In this document: positions 35,084 to 39,951 of the stretch, piece by piece | Layout: each line of letters starts with the position of its first letter | Numbering within the stretch: the first letter of the stretch is position 1 | Origin: Rhizohabitans arisaemae | GTDB taxonomy: Bacteria; Actinomycetota; Actinomycetes; Streptosporangiales; Streptosporangiaceae | Assembly (NCBI RefSeq): GCF_025996515.1 | Contig: NZ_BLRH01000060.1 | Coordinates: 248,001-312,000 of the forward strand | Direction: 5' to 3' | Length of the DNA: 64,000 nucleotides | The notes under the pieces: generated by a model | Seen by the model: the letters and a program-made list of their open reading frames with translations, nothing else | Database searches by the model: none | What the model was told of the DNA's origin: nothing | Made by a program: the position numbers and the translations under genes

Positions 35084-35947
35084 TTGGACCCCATCGACAC
35101 CGCCCCACGCCCGGGACCGACGTCCCGGGCCAGAATCCGTGTGGTCTCCGGCTCCGGAGTGCACGACCGACGGGACGACCTCGCCACCGAGGAGCCCATG
35201 GAGATCAGGCTCGCCGCCGGCGGCGTGAGCCGCACCGTCGCGATCACGATGCGCACGCCGACCCATGACTTCGAACTCGCCGCGGGATTCCTCCACGGCG
35301 AGGGGGTGATCAAGCCGGGTGAGATCGCGAGCATCGCCTACTGTACCGACGAGGACGTCCCGCCCGAGGCCCGTCACAACACCGTGACCGTACGGCTACA
35401 CGGCTCCCACCTGCCCGAATTGCCATCATTGTCGCGAAATTTTGTGACTACAAGTGCTTGTGGGGTGTGTGGGACCGGAAGTCTGGACGCGCTACGGCGA
35501 CGACTCCCGCACAGCCCCCAGACCGACCTGACGATCCCCGCCGAAACGCTGCTCCGACTTCCCGAACTGCTCCGCGCCAGACAAGGCATCTTCGGCAAGA
35601 CCGGCGGACTGCACGCCGCCGGGCTCTTCACCCGCGACGGCACCCTCACCGCCGTCCGCGAAGACGTCGGCCGGCACAACGCCGTCGACAAACTCATCGG
35701 CGCGGCCGTGCTCGCCGGCCACCTCCCCCTCCACGACCACATCCTCATGGTCAGCGGACGGGCAAGCTACGACATCATGCAGAAAGCCGTCACCGCCGGC
35801 ATCCCCGTCGTCTGCGCGGTCTCCGCCCCTTCGTCCCTCGCCGTCGACCTGGCCCGCGAGTTCCGCGTCACCCTCGTCGGCTTCCTCCGGGAAACCCGCT
35901 TCAACATCTACACCGAACCCGACCGAGTCGTCGTGGCACAGAACTGA
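35084..35947 (+). CDS. fdhD: Formate dehydrogenase accessory sulfurtransferase FdhD
   Basis: 287 residues. Central CxxC is in TTSACGVCGTGSLD, the loop shown to carry sulfur from IscS to the molybdenum cofactor. DLATEEPMEIRLAAGG, TMRTPTHDFELAAGFLHGEGV, GGLHAAGLFTRDG, REDVGRHNAVDKLIGAAV and MVSGRASYDIMQKA are all FdhD marks. The TTG start at 35084 has GAGAGGA 4 nt upstream. It implies a molybdenum formate dehydrogenase elsewhere on the chromosome, since no such gene is present here. Two copies of AGGGTTGATGA (35971 and 36038) follow the stop codon and may belong to its terminator region. Confidence 0.93.
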   Translation: MDPIDTAPRPGPTSRARIRVVSGSGVHDRRDDLATEEPMEIRLAAGGVSRTVAITMRTPTHDFELAAGFLHGEGVIKPGEIASIAYCTDEDVPPEARHNTVTVRLHGSHLPELPSLSRNFVTTSACGVCGTGSLDALRRRLPHSPQTDLTIPAETLLRLPELLRARQGIFGKTGGLHAAGLFTRDGTLTAVREDVGRHNAVDKLIGAAVLAGHLPLHDHILMVSGRASYDIMQKAVTAGIPVVCAVSAPSSLAVDLAREFRVTLVGFLRETRFNIYTEPDRVVVAQN

Positions 35948-36352
35948 CCACGGCGCGAAACCCGTCCACAAGGGTTGATGAACGATCGACGACGGTCGCC
36001 GTCGGCGACTCCCCGCTTGACAAGCTGCTATCCCACCAGGGTTGATGACTGACCGCCACGTACAAATCCGCAGGTCACCCGGGCACTGGACGTGCCGGGC
36101 GAACCGGTCCGCACAGCCACCCCGCGGAAATTAAGACACCCAGGTCAGAGTGTTGCACTTGCTGATGTTCAGGTGTCAAGTCGCCAGCTTGTGCCGGACA
36201 ATCTACCCCGAATTTCGAAGGCTGTCTCGGCCTGTTCAAAGATTGAATAGGTCCGCCCGGTACACGCAGTTGAGACTACCCCCAACCCGTATCGTTCCAC
36301 CCGGGCGAGCACACCGGCTTGTAAGTATGGCTGGATCTTAGGGTCGGTCGCG
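35948..36352. other. Gene-free stretch before the inverted-end element
   Basis: 405 nt of moderate GC without a convincing frame on either strand. It includes the AGGGTTGATGA pair at 35971-35981 and 36038-36048, each preceded by a CCAC-like sequence. Confidence 0.4.
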
Positions 36353-36364
36353 CTACATCCGCAC

Positions 36365-36395
36365 TTCTCGCGCCGCGCCCTTTGCGGCGCGAGAA
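36365..36395. repeat. 12-bp perfect hairpin at left end of the element
   Basis: TTCTCGCGCCGC (36365-36376) and GCGGCGCGAGAA (36384-36395) pair around GCCCTTT. Its left arm overlaps the terminal inverted repeat, so the end sequence can pair either locally or with the far end. Confidence 0.8.
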
Positions 36396-36450
36396 TGCGC
36401 GCGGCGGTTCGTGCCGCGTGCTTTTTGCGCGGCACGAACCGCCGCGCGCA
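36396..36450. repeat. 23-bp perfect hairpin
   Basis: Arms 36396-36418 and 36428-36450 pair without mismatch around the 9-nt loop TGCTTTTTG. It directly abuts the preceding 12-bp hairpin with no spacer base. Confidence 0.85.
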
Positions 36451-37123
36451 ATGTTGAAAATACTGTTCTTGTGAGCGTGATCGCGCCTGACGGGGTATCG
36501 CACGTCCGTGGTTTCCACCCCAACGACTCCCTCCCGATCGCCCCCCTAAGACCAGGGCAAACCAGAGGTGCCAACCCCGGTGGGAACCATCCGCCGCAGC
36601 CGGTAGGCCCGGTGTCATCCCGGGTTAGCTGGTCCTGGCTTTGGTACGAGCCGGGTAGGTGCGGTCGAGAGGGGACAACCCCGGCACACGAACCACATTG
36701 GCTCCGAAGTCTTTTACAGGGCCACCAGATCCTAGTCGCATGTACGGTCAGGGCGACAACCTGAATGCGCCAACCATGTCAAGTGGGGTTAAGCTTAAGA
36801 TCGCCTGTACTTTTTGGGTTGAACCTTCGCTCGGTCCGACTAGAAACGCTGGTGAAGTAGCGTTTCCGTCCGTTTCTTACGGCACTGACGTGACGTGGGA
36901 AATACTTCGGTCCGAAAGCTGCCATGTTTCGAGCACACCCCCGACATCGCTCCAGGCCGGTCTACGCCGGAAAATGGCACGGGCCACCGCCCGCATTCTC
37001 GCGCCGCGAAGTGCGTGACGCGAGAAGTGCGGACGTAGTGCCTCGGGCAGTCGGCATCCAACCGTAATCAGCCCTCAACCCGGAAACCCCGTAAACAATC
37101 CCGGGATGGGCCGTGGGGGACTG

Positions 37124-39814
37124 TCAGCCGGTGTTCTGGAGGCCTGCGGCGACGCCGTTGACGGTGAGGAGCAGCAGGGTGGAGAGGCGGTCGGATTCGT
37201 CGGGGTCGGTGGTGCCGGTGCGGAGGGCGGCCAGCGCGCGGAGCTGGAGGTGGGAGAGGGCGTCGACGTAGGGGTCGCGGAGCTGGACGGCACGGGAGAG
37301 GACACGGCGGTTCTGCAGGAGCCGTTCGTGACCCGTCACCGCCAACACCAAACGCTTGGTCAGGTCATACTCGCCCAGCACCTGCTCGGTGAACCCCTCC
37401 TGGTTTCCGAGGGCGAGGTACCGGGCGGCGATGGCGCGGTCGGTCTTGGCCAGGGACATCTCCACGTTGTCCAGGAGTGAGGCGAAGAGCGGCCACTCCT
37501 GGTAGGCGGCCTGAAGCTGGGCGAGACCCGGCATGTCGCCCGAGTCGCCCTCCACCGGCGTGTCCCCGGTGCCGTTCAGGGCGACCGCGGCGAGCCCGCT
37601 GCCGAGGCCGTACCATCCGGGAAGGTTGACCCGGGTCTGCGCCCAGGCGAACACCCAGGGGATGGCCCGGAGGTCGTCCAGCGACGTGGGCGCCCCGAGA
37701 CCGCGCCGGGCCGGGCGCGAACCCAGCCGGAGTGTGCCGATCTCCCCGAGGGGCGACACCTTGGCGAACCACTCGGCGAATCCGGGGGCCTGCACGAGCT
37801 TGCGGTAGGTGGCCTCGGAGGCCTCCGCGACCTGAGCGGCGATGCCGCGGAAGAGCAGGGCCGCGCTGGCCGTACGGGCTTCGACCGACGGGGTGGAGGC
37901 GCTGAGCACAGCCGAGACGACCTGCTCCATGTGGCGCCGGGCGATGGCCGCGTGGCCGTACCGGGCGAAGATCACCTCACCTTGCTCGGTCACCTTGAAC
38001 CGTCCGGCCACCGAGCCGGGGGCCTGCGCCAGCACGGCGCGGTTGGCGGGCCCGCCGCCCCGGCCGAGGGCGCCGCCCCGACCGTGGAAGAGGGTGAGCC
38101 GGATGTCGTGCTGCGCCGCGAAGGCGGTGAGCGCGGCCTGGGCGTCGTACAGCCGGAGGGTGGCGGCGGCGGGTCCGAGCTCCTTGGCCGAGTCGGAGTA
38201 GCCGAGCATGACCTCCATCCGGCGCCCGTTCTTGGCGAGGCGGGCCTGGACCGGGGGGAGGGCGAGCATGCCTTCGAGAACCGAGACCGAGTTGTCCAGG
38301 TCGTTCCCGGACTCGAACAGGGGGACGACGTCGAGGACGGGGGGCCGGGTGCACGCGTAGGCGGCGAGCTCGTACACGGCCTCGACGTCGCCCGCGGACC
38401 TGGTGAACGACACCACGTACCGGGAGCACGCCTCCACCCCGAAGCGTTCCTGGATCCAGGAGACGACCCGGAACGTGGCGAGGACCTCCTCGGTCCGTTC
38501 GGAGAGGGGGCCGCCGGCCCGTACCTCGGCGAGCGCTTCGGCGTGGACGGTGGAGTGCTGGCGGACCTCCAGCTCCGCCAGGTGGAAACCAAACGTCTCG
38601 ACCTGCCAGATGAGGTGCTGGAGCTCCCCGAACGCCTGCCGGGCGGCCCCGGCCTCGGTGAGGGAGTCCTGGGCCAGGGCGAGGTCGGTGAGGAGCCCGG
38701 CCGGGGAACGGTAGGCGAGGTCCATGTCGCGGCGGCGGGTCGCCCTGATCCTGGCGGCGACGAAGAGCAGCCATTGGCGGTGCGGCTCCTGCGGCGAGCG
38801 GGTCGCCATCTCCGACACCAGCGTGGGGTGGGCGTCGGCGGCCTCGTCGATCGCGGTGCGCAGCGCGTGGGAGGGCGGGGTCATCGAGGAGGCCGCGGTG
38901 AGGGTACGGGCGATCCGCAGGCACGCGGCCTCCAGCGCGCGCAGGATGTGCTCGGCCTGGATAAGGATCGCCTCCCGGGTCACCGAGGCCACCACATTGG
39001 GGTTTCCGTCCCGGTCTCCGCCGATCCAGCTGCCGAACCGGATGAAGGCCGGGGCGAGCGGCGCCCGGTTGCCGGAGCCGGGGGCGAGTGCGGCGTCGAA
39101 GGACCGGTAGACGGCGGGGACCAGCCGGAAGAGCGTCTCGTCGAACACCGCCATGGCCGTACGGACCTCGTCGAGCGGGTCGAGCTTGGTGCTGCGGAGC
39201 TGCGCGGACCGCCAGAGCAGGTCGATCTCCTCCAGGAGCCTGCGCTTGGCCTCCATCCGCTCGTGCACGCCGTGCAGCGGCCGGCTGTACTCGACGAGCC
39301 TGCCGCTGATCCGCTGGATCGCGGTGACGACCGCGCGCCGCCGGGCCTCGGTGGGGTGGGCGGTCAGGACCGGGTGGAGCTCCAGCCCTTCGGTGAGGGA
39401 GGCCAGCCGGTCCTGCCCGAGTTCGTCCTTGAGGTGCTGTACGGCGTCCGCGAGGGAGCCGGGCAGCGGCCGGTCCGCATCGACGTCGCGTTCCCGGAGG
39501 ATGCGGATGCGGTAGTGCTCCTCCGCGAGGTTGGCGAGGTGGAAGTAGCAGGTGAAGGCGCGGGCGATCTGCACGGCCCGGTCGAGCGGCCACTGCTCCA
39601 CCAGGGTGGCGACCTCTTCCACGGTCAGCCGCCCGCGACGGGCCGCGATCACCGCGTGCCGGAGCAGTTCGACGTCGTCGAGGAGGTCCTGACCACCGTG
39701 TTCCGCGATCACCTGGCCGAGCAGTTCGCCGAGAAGGCGTACGTCGGCTCGGAGTTCGTCGGGCATCTCCTGCCGCGCGACCGCGCGCTCTGCTTGCTCG
39801 GAACCGTCTGACAT
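37124..39814 (-). CDS. ppc: Phosphoenolpyruvate carboxylase
   Basis: 896 residues from the ATG at 39814. ELHPVLTAHPTEARRRAV contains the catalytic His, FGSWIGGDRDGNPNV is the bicarbonate/PEP loop, VMLGYSDSAKE and LTLFHGRGGALGRGGGPANRA hold the catalytic Arg and Gly-rich loop, and the end N-T-G is the conserved C-terminus that completes the active site. The enzyme makes oxaloacetate from PEP and bicarbonate, replenishing the TCA cycle. Bacterial length is normal. The ATG is preceded by a GATACTCT sequence about 9 nt away and no ribosome site, suggesting a leaderless transcript. The frame is open to 39925 but without family similarity. Confidence 0.95.
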   Translation of the reverse strand: MSDGSEQAERAVARQEMPDELRADVRLLGELLGQVIAEHGGQDLLDDVELLRHAVIAARRGRLTVEEVATLVEQWPLDRAVQIARAFTCYFHLANLAEEHYRIRILRERDVDADRPLPGSLADAVQHLKDELGQDRLASLTEGLELHPVLTAHPTEARRRAVVTAIQRISGRLVEYSRPLHGVHERMEAKRRLLEEIDLLWRSAQLRSTKLDPLDEVRTAMAVFDETLFRLVPAVYRSFDAALAPGSGNRAPLAPAFIRFGSWIGGDRDGNPNVVASVTREAILIQAEHILRALEAACLRIARTLTAASSMTPPSHALRTAIDEAADAHPTLVSEMATRSPQEPHRQWLLFVAARIRATRRRDMDLAYRSPAGLLTDLALAQDSLTEAGAARQAFGELQHLIWQVETFGFHLAELEVRQHSTVHAEALAEVRAGGPLSERTEEVLATFRVVSWIQERFGVEACSRYVVSFTRSAGDVEAVYELAAYACTRPPVLDVVPLFESGNDLDNSVSVLEGMLALPPVQARLAKNGRRMEVMLGYSDSAKELGPAAATLRLYDAQAALTAFAAQHDIRLTLFHGRGGALGRGGGPANRAVLAQAPGSVAGRFKVTEQGEVIFARYGHAAIARRHMEQVVSAVLSASTPSVEARTASAALLFRGIAAQVAEASEATYRKLVQAPGFAEWFAKVSPLGEIGTLRLGSRPARRGLGAPTSLDDLRAIPWVFAWAQTRVNLPGWYGLGSGLAAVALNGTGDTPVEGDSGDMPGLAQLQAAYQEWPLFASLLDNVEMSLAKTDRAIAARYLALGNQEGFTEQVLGEYDLTKRLVLAVTGHERLLQNRRVLSRAVQLRDPYVDALSHLQLRALAALRTGTTDPDESDRLSTLLLLTVNGVAAGLQNTG

Positions 39815-39915
39815 GGGAAGAGAGTATCGAGATCGAATTTTCGCCGGGATACCGGTCCCGGCCGCCAGGACACGTCGTCGATCATGCATGTGGTCACACC
39901 CCAGGTCGTGATCAT

Positions 39916-39951
39916 GCGCTGGCACAAAGGTCTAGACCATTGTGCCAGCGC
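39916..39951 (-). terminator. 36-bp near-perfect palindrome, terminator of the ABC operon
   Basis: GCGCTGGCACAA (39916-39927) pairs with TTGTGCCAGCGC (39940-39951), and the loop contains GGTCTAGACC, itself a palindrome, so 17 of 18 pairs form. It lies 30 nt after the permease stop. Confidence 0.75.

Follow-up and report, generated by a model that had tools for sequence, protein, structure and literature searches.

A decayed cluster of a probably new, lineage-restricted composite repeat family between fdhD and ppc in Rhizohabitans arisaemae

The gene-free stretch between fdhD and ppc in the window, which is the whole analysed stretch of 64,000 nucleotides, is a decayed cluster of modules in the arrangement B+ C+ A+ B-. 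These modules probably belong to a family of composite interspersed repeats that is new and restricted to one lineage, and that has A-L-B-C as its intact form.

Module map of the gene-free stretch

The cluster starts with a full-length module B and a degenerate module C, which is the 3' tail of the unit and whose right part looks like the L linker by eye (Table 1). A degenerate module A follows, which at other loci lies upstream of B, and the last module is a second, partial B in inverted orientation. This inverted B holds the right arm of an inverted repeat, the left arm of which is located in the first B.

The sequence-only reading had taken this repeat as the boundary of a single 686-bp element, either a non-autonomous transposon or a long RNA with paired ends. 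The inverted repeat of 20 bp and a single mismatch was recovered, with positions 36353-36372 (CTACATCCGCACTTCTCGCG) and the reverse complement of positions 37019-37038 (CTACGTCCGCACTTCTCGCG) differing at one base, and its arms extend beyond 20 bp to 66 nt with 85 % complementarity. The absence of a credible ORF was confirmed as well, as the codon model called no genes between the ends of fdhD (35947) and ppc (37124), and no common open frame is found in the intact copies of the family. Likewise, the GC content of 0.615 in the region is below the value of 0.690 in the window, and the local hairpins are present as the two exact inverted repeats of module B. In folding comparisons with shuffled sequences, the 711-nt region reached z-scores of -9.7 on the plus strand and -10.9 on the minus strand. 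The idea of an end-paired long RNA of 686 bp did not hold, because the pairing of the ends is a by-product of two B copies lying in inverted orientation.

Table 1. Features of the window around the gene-free stretch
Feature	Position	Strand	Evidence or remark
fdhD (FdhD/NarQ family), left convergent neighbour	35084..35947	+	Pfam PF02634, E=6.6e-67
Module B, full-length, 198-position model	36319..36513	+	nhmmer E=5.4e-58; CM R1 226 bits, E=5.5e-55, match 36315-36519
Left arm of inverted repeat	36350..36415	.	Inside B+
B hairpin 1	36365..36395	+	12-bp perfect arms, 7-nt loop; covarying among copies
B hairpin 2	36396..36450	+	23-bp perfect arms, 9-nt loop; covarying among copies
Module C, degenerate, 3' tail of unit	36510..36614	+	nhmmer E=1.5e-8
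Module A, degenerate, positions 3-198 of 213	36740..36940	+	nhmmer E=3.9e-39; alignment A4
Second module B, partial (positions 6-138 of 198), inverted	36943..37068	-	nhmmer E=1.1e-19; CM match 36897-37077 minus, E=2.2e-11
Right arm of inverted repeat	36976..37041	.	Inside B-
ppc (PEP carboxylase), right convergent neighbour	37124..39925	-	Pfam PF00311, E=2.1e-244

The same intergenic region contains a CRISPR-repeat-like relic directly after fdhD (35957-36053). Its best copy at 36024-36053, GCTGCTATCCCACCAGGGTTGATGACTGAC, agrees at 25 of 30 bases with the repeat unit of a CRISPR-like array located at another site of the genome (L030:956-1116, GTTGCGATCCCTTCAGGGTTGATGAGTGAC), the next best match in the window on that strand being 18 of 30. 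A weaker copy, GGGTTGATGA, lies 67 bp upstream of the best one, at a spacing near the pitch of the L030 array.

Copies, module order and palindromes of the family

A blastn search of the region against its own genome (8.33 Mb in 63 contigs) yielded 98 matches, and the left ~185 bp were matched at about 40 places (at least 40). Extension of these matches led to the ~200-bp module B, which is common to at least 42 places. A covariance model of B, named R1, was built from 41 copies and found approximately 43 near-full copies in the genome, distributed over eight contigs, plus several decayed ones. The pairwise identity of the B copies has a mean of 77 % and a maximum of 90 %. Upstream of many B copies lies module A, which is ~213 bp long, has a sharp left edge and is joined to B by the linker L, while module C follows downstream of B. 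The models cover 213 positions for A, ~90 for L, 198 for B and ~120 for C.

With profiles of these four modules, the same-strand adjacencies over 37 loci were A>L in 15 cases, L>B in 26 and B>C in 16, with few others. The intact order is A-L-B-C with a length of ~600 bp. Shorter, tandem and inverted variants also exist, such as L-A-L-A-L-B, B-L-B-L-B and inverted pairs, and many copies of the family are partial or decayed. One of the densest clusters is a 1.7-kb gene-free stretch with convergent flanks (L024:2334-4073) that contains an A-L-B unit alongside several B modules in both orientations. At L026:1821-2624, L-A-L-A-L-B fills the entire gap of a convergent F420-biosynthesis pair, composed of an fbiB-like F420 ligase/nitroreductase and an fbiC-like radical SAM gene. 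Inspection of the alignments by eye suggests that A and B share their start and end (GTAAGYACGG ... CGCACGTSCC), and such like termini would suit related elements under one machinery.

The palindromes of both modules covary. In the B helices, 97.4 % of the cells are standard pairs compared to 26-49 % in slid controls, and 21 of the 43 pairs are changed on both sides, in 99 such cells. The shuffled means for these two counts are 10 and 26, and none of 500 shuffles reached the observed values. Module A has one long helix plus an inner hairpin that varies among copies. Double-sided changes affect 11 of its 47 pairs and include exchanges in the long helix from CCCGCGTC/GACGCGGG to GGCAGCGTC/GACGCTGCC, and its internal-loop strings, CTTCCCTC ... 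TCAGTCCAG, are almost invariant. As comparisons among paralogues, these changes show that the palindromes are, or were, maintained during the divergence of the family. The check for covarying stems proposed in the sequence-only reading thus returned strong covariation, although among paralogous module copies of one genome instead of at one conserved locus, a signal that does not tell apart RNA, single-stranded DNA and dyad sites.

Since the hairpins have no regular T-run tail, they are not textbook intrinsic terminators. In the window, a smaller hairpin can form as an alternative from the 5' half (36397-36421) of B hairpin 2. It is followed by TTTTT, giving a terminator-like arrangement that would compete with the full hairpin. 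This T-run is not conserved in every copy.

Genomic location, gain and distribution

The blocks of modules are concentrated between convergent genes. Among the 38 blocks for which both neighbours were called, 24 are convergent, 12 tandem and 2 divergent, compared to 14 convergent, 90 tandem and 30 divergent module-free junctions at the same loci (n=134). This enrichment (24/38 vs 14/134, Fisher p=1.7e-10) is based on our own crude gene calls from codon usage. Blocks at tandem neighbours show no orientation bias, with six in the same and five in the opposite orientation. At L010, L013 and L040, the modules occupy the whole gap and leave 10-40 bp to each stop codon. The neighbouring genes have no common theme, and the genes called in the 37 loci share weak paralogy only. 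A shared flanking mobility gene, such as a transposase or reverse transcriptase, was not found, and the ten genes searched against Pfam have no link to mobility.

Two conserved junctions allow a comparison with relatives. The convergent fdhD/ppc pair is retained in relatives, and its gap of 1177 bp in this genome compares with 24 bp in G005 and ~150 bp in G009. In two other relatives, the gap measures several hundred bp and resembles an unrelated small gene. The gap between fbiB and fbiC is ~800 bp here, while three relatives have 97, 213 and 65 bp. The short gaps of relatives at these two conserved convergent pairs therefore show that this lineage acquired DNA at junctions that already existed.

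Beyond this genome, the family was not found. A relaxed search (E<=0.01) detected R1 in none of 24 relatives. The R1 model had no match in 120 genomes of the taxonomic family, and blastn did not find the repeat family in 346 genomes of the order and 394 of the class. Filters were stricter in all searches that covered more than 40 genomes, and distant homologues beneath these sensitivities are possible. The family was also not found in plasmids and phages. Among the relatives listed, the genus is represented by only one genome. Searches of the window and nine loci against Rfam, at gathering and permissive thresholds, returned nothing credible, and the miRNA-type hits among them merely mirror the perfect hairpin. 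Pattern scans of GTDB and IMG/VR gave either zero matches or ~19-37 bases around the pattern, which were judged to be chance because the remainder of the module does not align. Weak blastn matches of 25-51 bp in two relatives fall within the palindrome and were rejected.

Mobility, rival explanations and known repeat families

These observations are best read as a new family of composite interspersed repeats of the BOX/BIME type, which was likely spread in trans and is tolerated or used as structured 3' ends. Its movement is inferred from its dispersal and the lineage-specific gain. The search for an associated transposase, by the Y1 family and by Pfam on ten neighbouring genes, identified none. 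Target-site duplications reached p<=0.05 in 4 of 39 blocks where about two are expected, which is no systematic signal, and candidates occur only in isolation, at L017 (10 bp) and at L021 (14 bp). The L021 candidate is a direct repeat, AGATTCCGTACGGC, that flanks a B-C block (L021:2350-2720) as a possible target duplication and overlaps a local palindrome. Clear terminal inverted repeats were not found at the module ends.

Of the alternatives, a 686-bp MITE, one non-autonomous transposon with the 20-bp (66-nt) inverted repeats as its ends, has barely any probability left. It would explain the inverted arms, the lack of an ORF and the multi-copy relatives. However, both arms are internal to B copies and homologous DNA continues past them, from ~36315 to 37077, so that neither arm is an end. 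In addition, B+ C+ A+ B- occurs as a unit at no other locus, and target duplications show no systematic signal. The MITE reading as a 686-bp unit is thus refuted by the module map, which leaves repetitive, structured, non-coding and multi-copy DNA as the part of the sequence-only reading that stands. That reading had also pointed to IS200/IS605-like ends. Single-strand hairpins of REP/BIME-like type or of IS200/IS605 origin, mobilised by a Y1 transposase (RAYT), would be in line with the GTAAG/GTAGG motifs that punctuate the hairpins and resemble GTAG-tagged REPs. This is nevertheless very unlikely, as the genome has no match to Y1_Tnp (PF01797), which was detected in 5 of 14 control genomes, and the modules measure ~200 bp instead of 20-40 bp. 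For the present genome, movement of the REP-RAYT or IS200/IS605 type is largely refuted.

Another possibility is that A-L-B-C is an expressed family of large structured ncRNAs of ~500-600 nt with dozens of paralogues, in which the RNA itself is selected. The strong covariation in B and A, the nearly invariant internal-loop strings of A and the fixed module order would fit this explanation, as would the count of 44 G-U cells against 12 A-C cells for the unit strand. By pair, however, G-U leads A-C by 16 to 11, which is not significant (p=0.44), and C-to-T is commoner than G-to-A in unpaired columns too. Suggestive by cells but not by pairs, this strand comparison was given no weight. Furthermore, numerous copies are partial or decayed, relatives lack them, the window copy has no promoter match, orientation is not biased relative to tandem neighbours, and DNA palindromes also undergo compensatory change. 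Overall, this explanation appears unlikely, albeit the least so among the alternatives. We regard it as less probable still that A-L-B-C is a self-spreading structured RNA, in which an enzyme would copy a putative transcript of 500-600 nt, conserved in its A and B domains, into gene ends across this genome, giving dozens of paralogous large RNAs. A similarly low probability is given to bidirectional transcription terminators that were duplicated and retained for termination between convergent genes. Their position between convergent gene ends, at times across the whole gap, and palindromic hairpins that act on both strands argue for this function. Against it, a regular U-tract is missing, termination needs neither a conserved module of ~200 bp nor module A, the 12 blocks in tandem contexts do not fit, and promoter avoidance accounts for the placement equally well.

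For the preferred reading of a composite repeat family, the following mechanism can be proposed. An enzyme working in trans would spread copies of a non-autonomous family through the genome, and local tandem and inverted clusters could arise from repeated insertion or recombination. Copies would persist chiefly between convergent genes, where promoters and operons stay unbroken and the least harm is done. If transcripts from either flanking gene enter the modules, the strong hairpins would become their 3' end. As has been suggested for BIME and BOX elements, the hairpins would probably curb read-through and protect the end of the RNA or determine its form.

The family is closest in kind to BOX of Streptococcus pneumoniae, whose modules occur in fixed order and variable number, are tightly folded and dispersed, and are confined to one lineage (PMC3049150). 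An over-representation between convergent genes is reported for BOX (p=0.0017) and SPRITE (1.7e-9) (PMC3049150, Table 1). Modularity, tight folding, restriction to one lineage and a bias towards convergent genes are common to BOX and the present family, whereas the modules described here are larger, GC-rich and without recognised terminal inverted repeats or target duplications; this likeness is one of kind, by description, and no family membership by sequence is claimed. REP/BIME elements, GTAG-tagged palindromes, are intergenic, lie mostly between convergent or unidirectional genes and form mosaic arrays, and REPs of 20-40 bp are linked to RAYT Y1 transposases (PMC3733652, which does not mention Actinobacteria). 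They resemble the present family in their intergenic palindromes, location bias and mosaics, but differ from its ~200-bp modules without a Y1 gene. Neisserial NIME and Correia elements are likewise composite intergenic mosaics, and 26-bp inverted repeats delimit the Correia elements (PMC3049150), whereas delimiting inverted repeats are absent here. The large RNAs GOLLD, ROOL, OLE and HEARO also span several hundred nt with multiple covarying helices. In contrast to them, this family has no Rfam match and occurs in tens of copies in one genome, many of them broken.

The family is probably a new one of a known kind, and it stands out by its size, GC content and order. It provides an actinobacterial example of a composite repeat family that is large, GC-rich and well ordered, while the papers found describe such families from other phyla. 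Its many copies make it testable, as presence and absence among strains would indicate whether it is still moving, and its position at convergent gene ends allows asking whether the hairpins end or protect transcripts.
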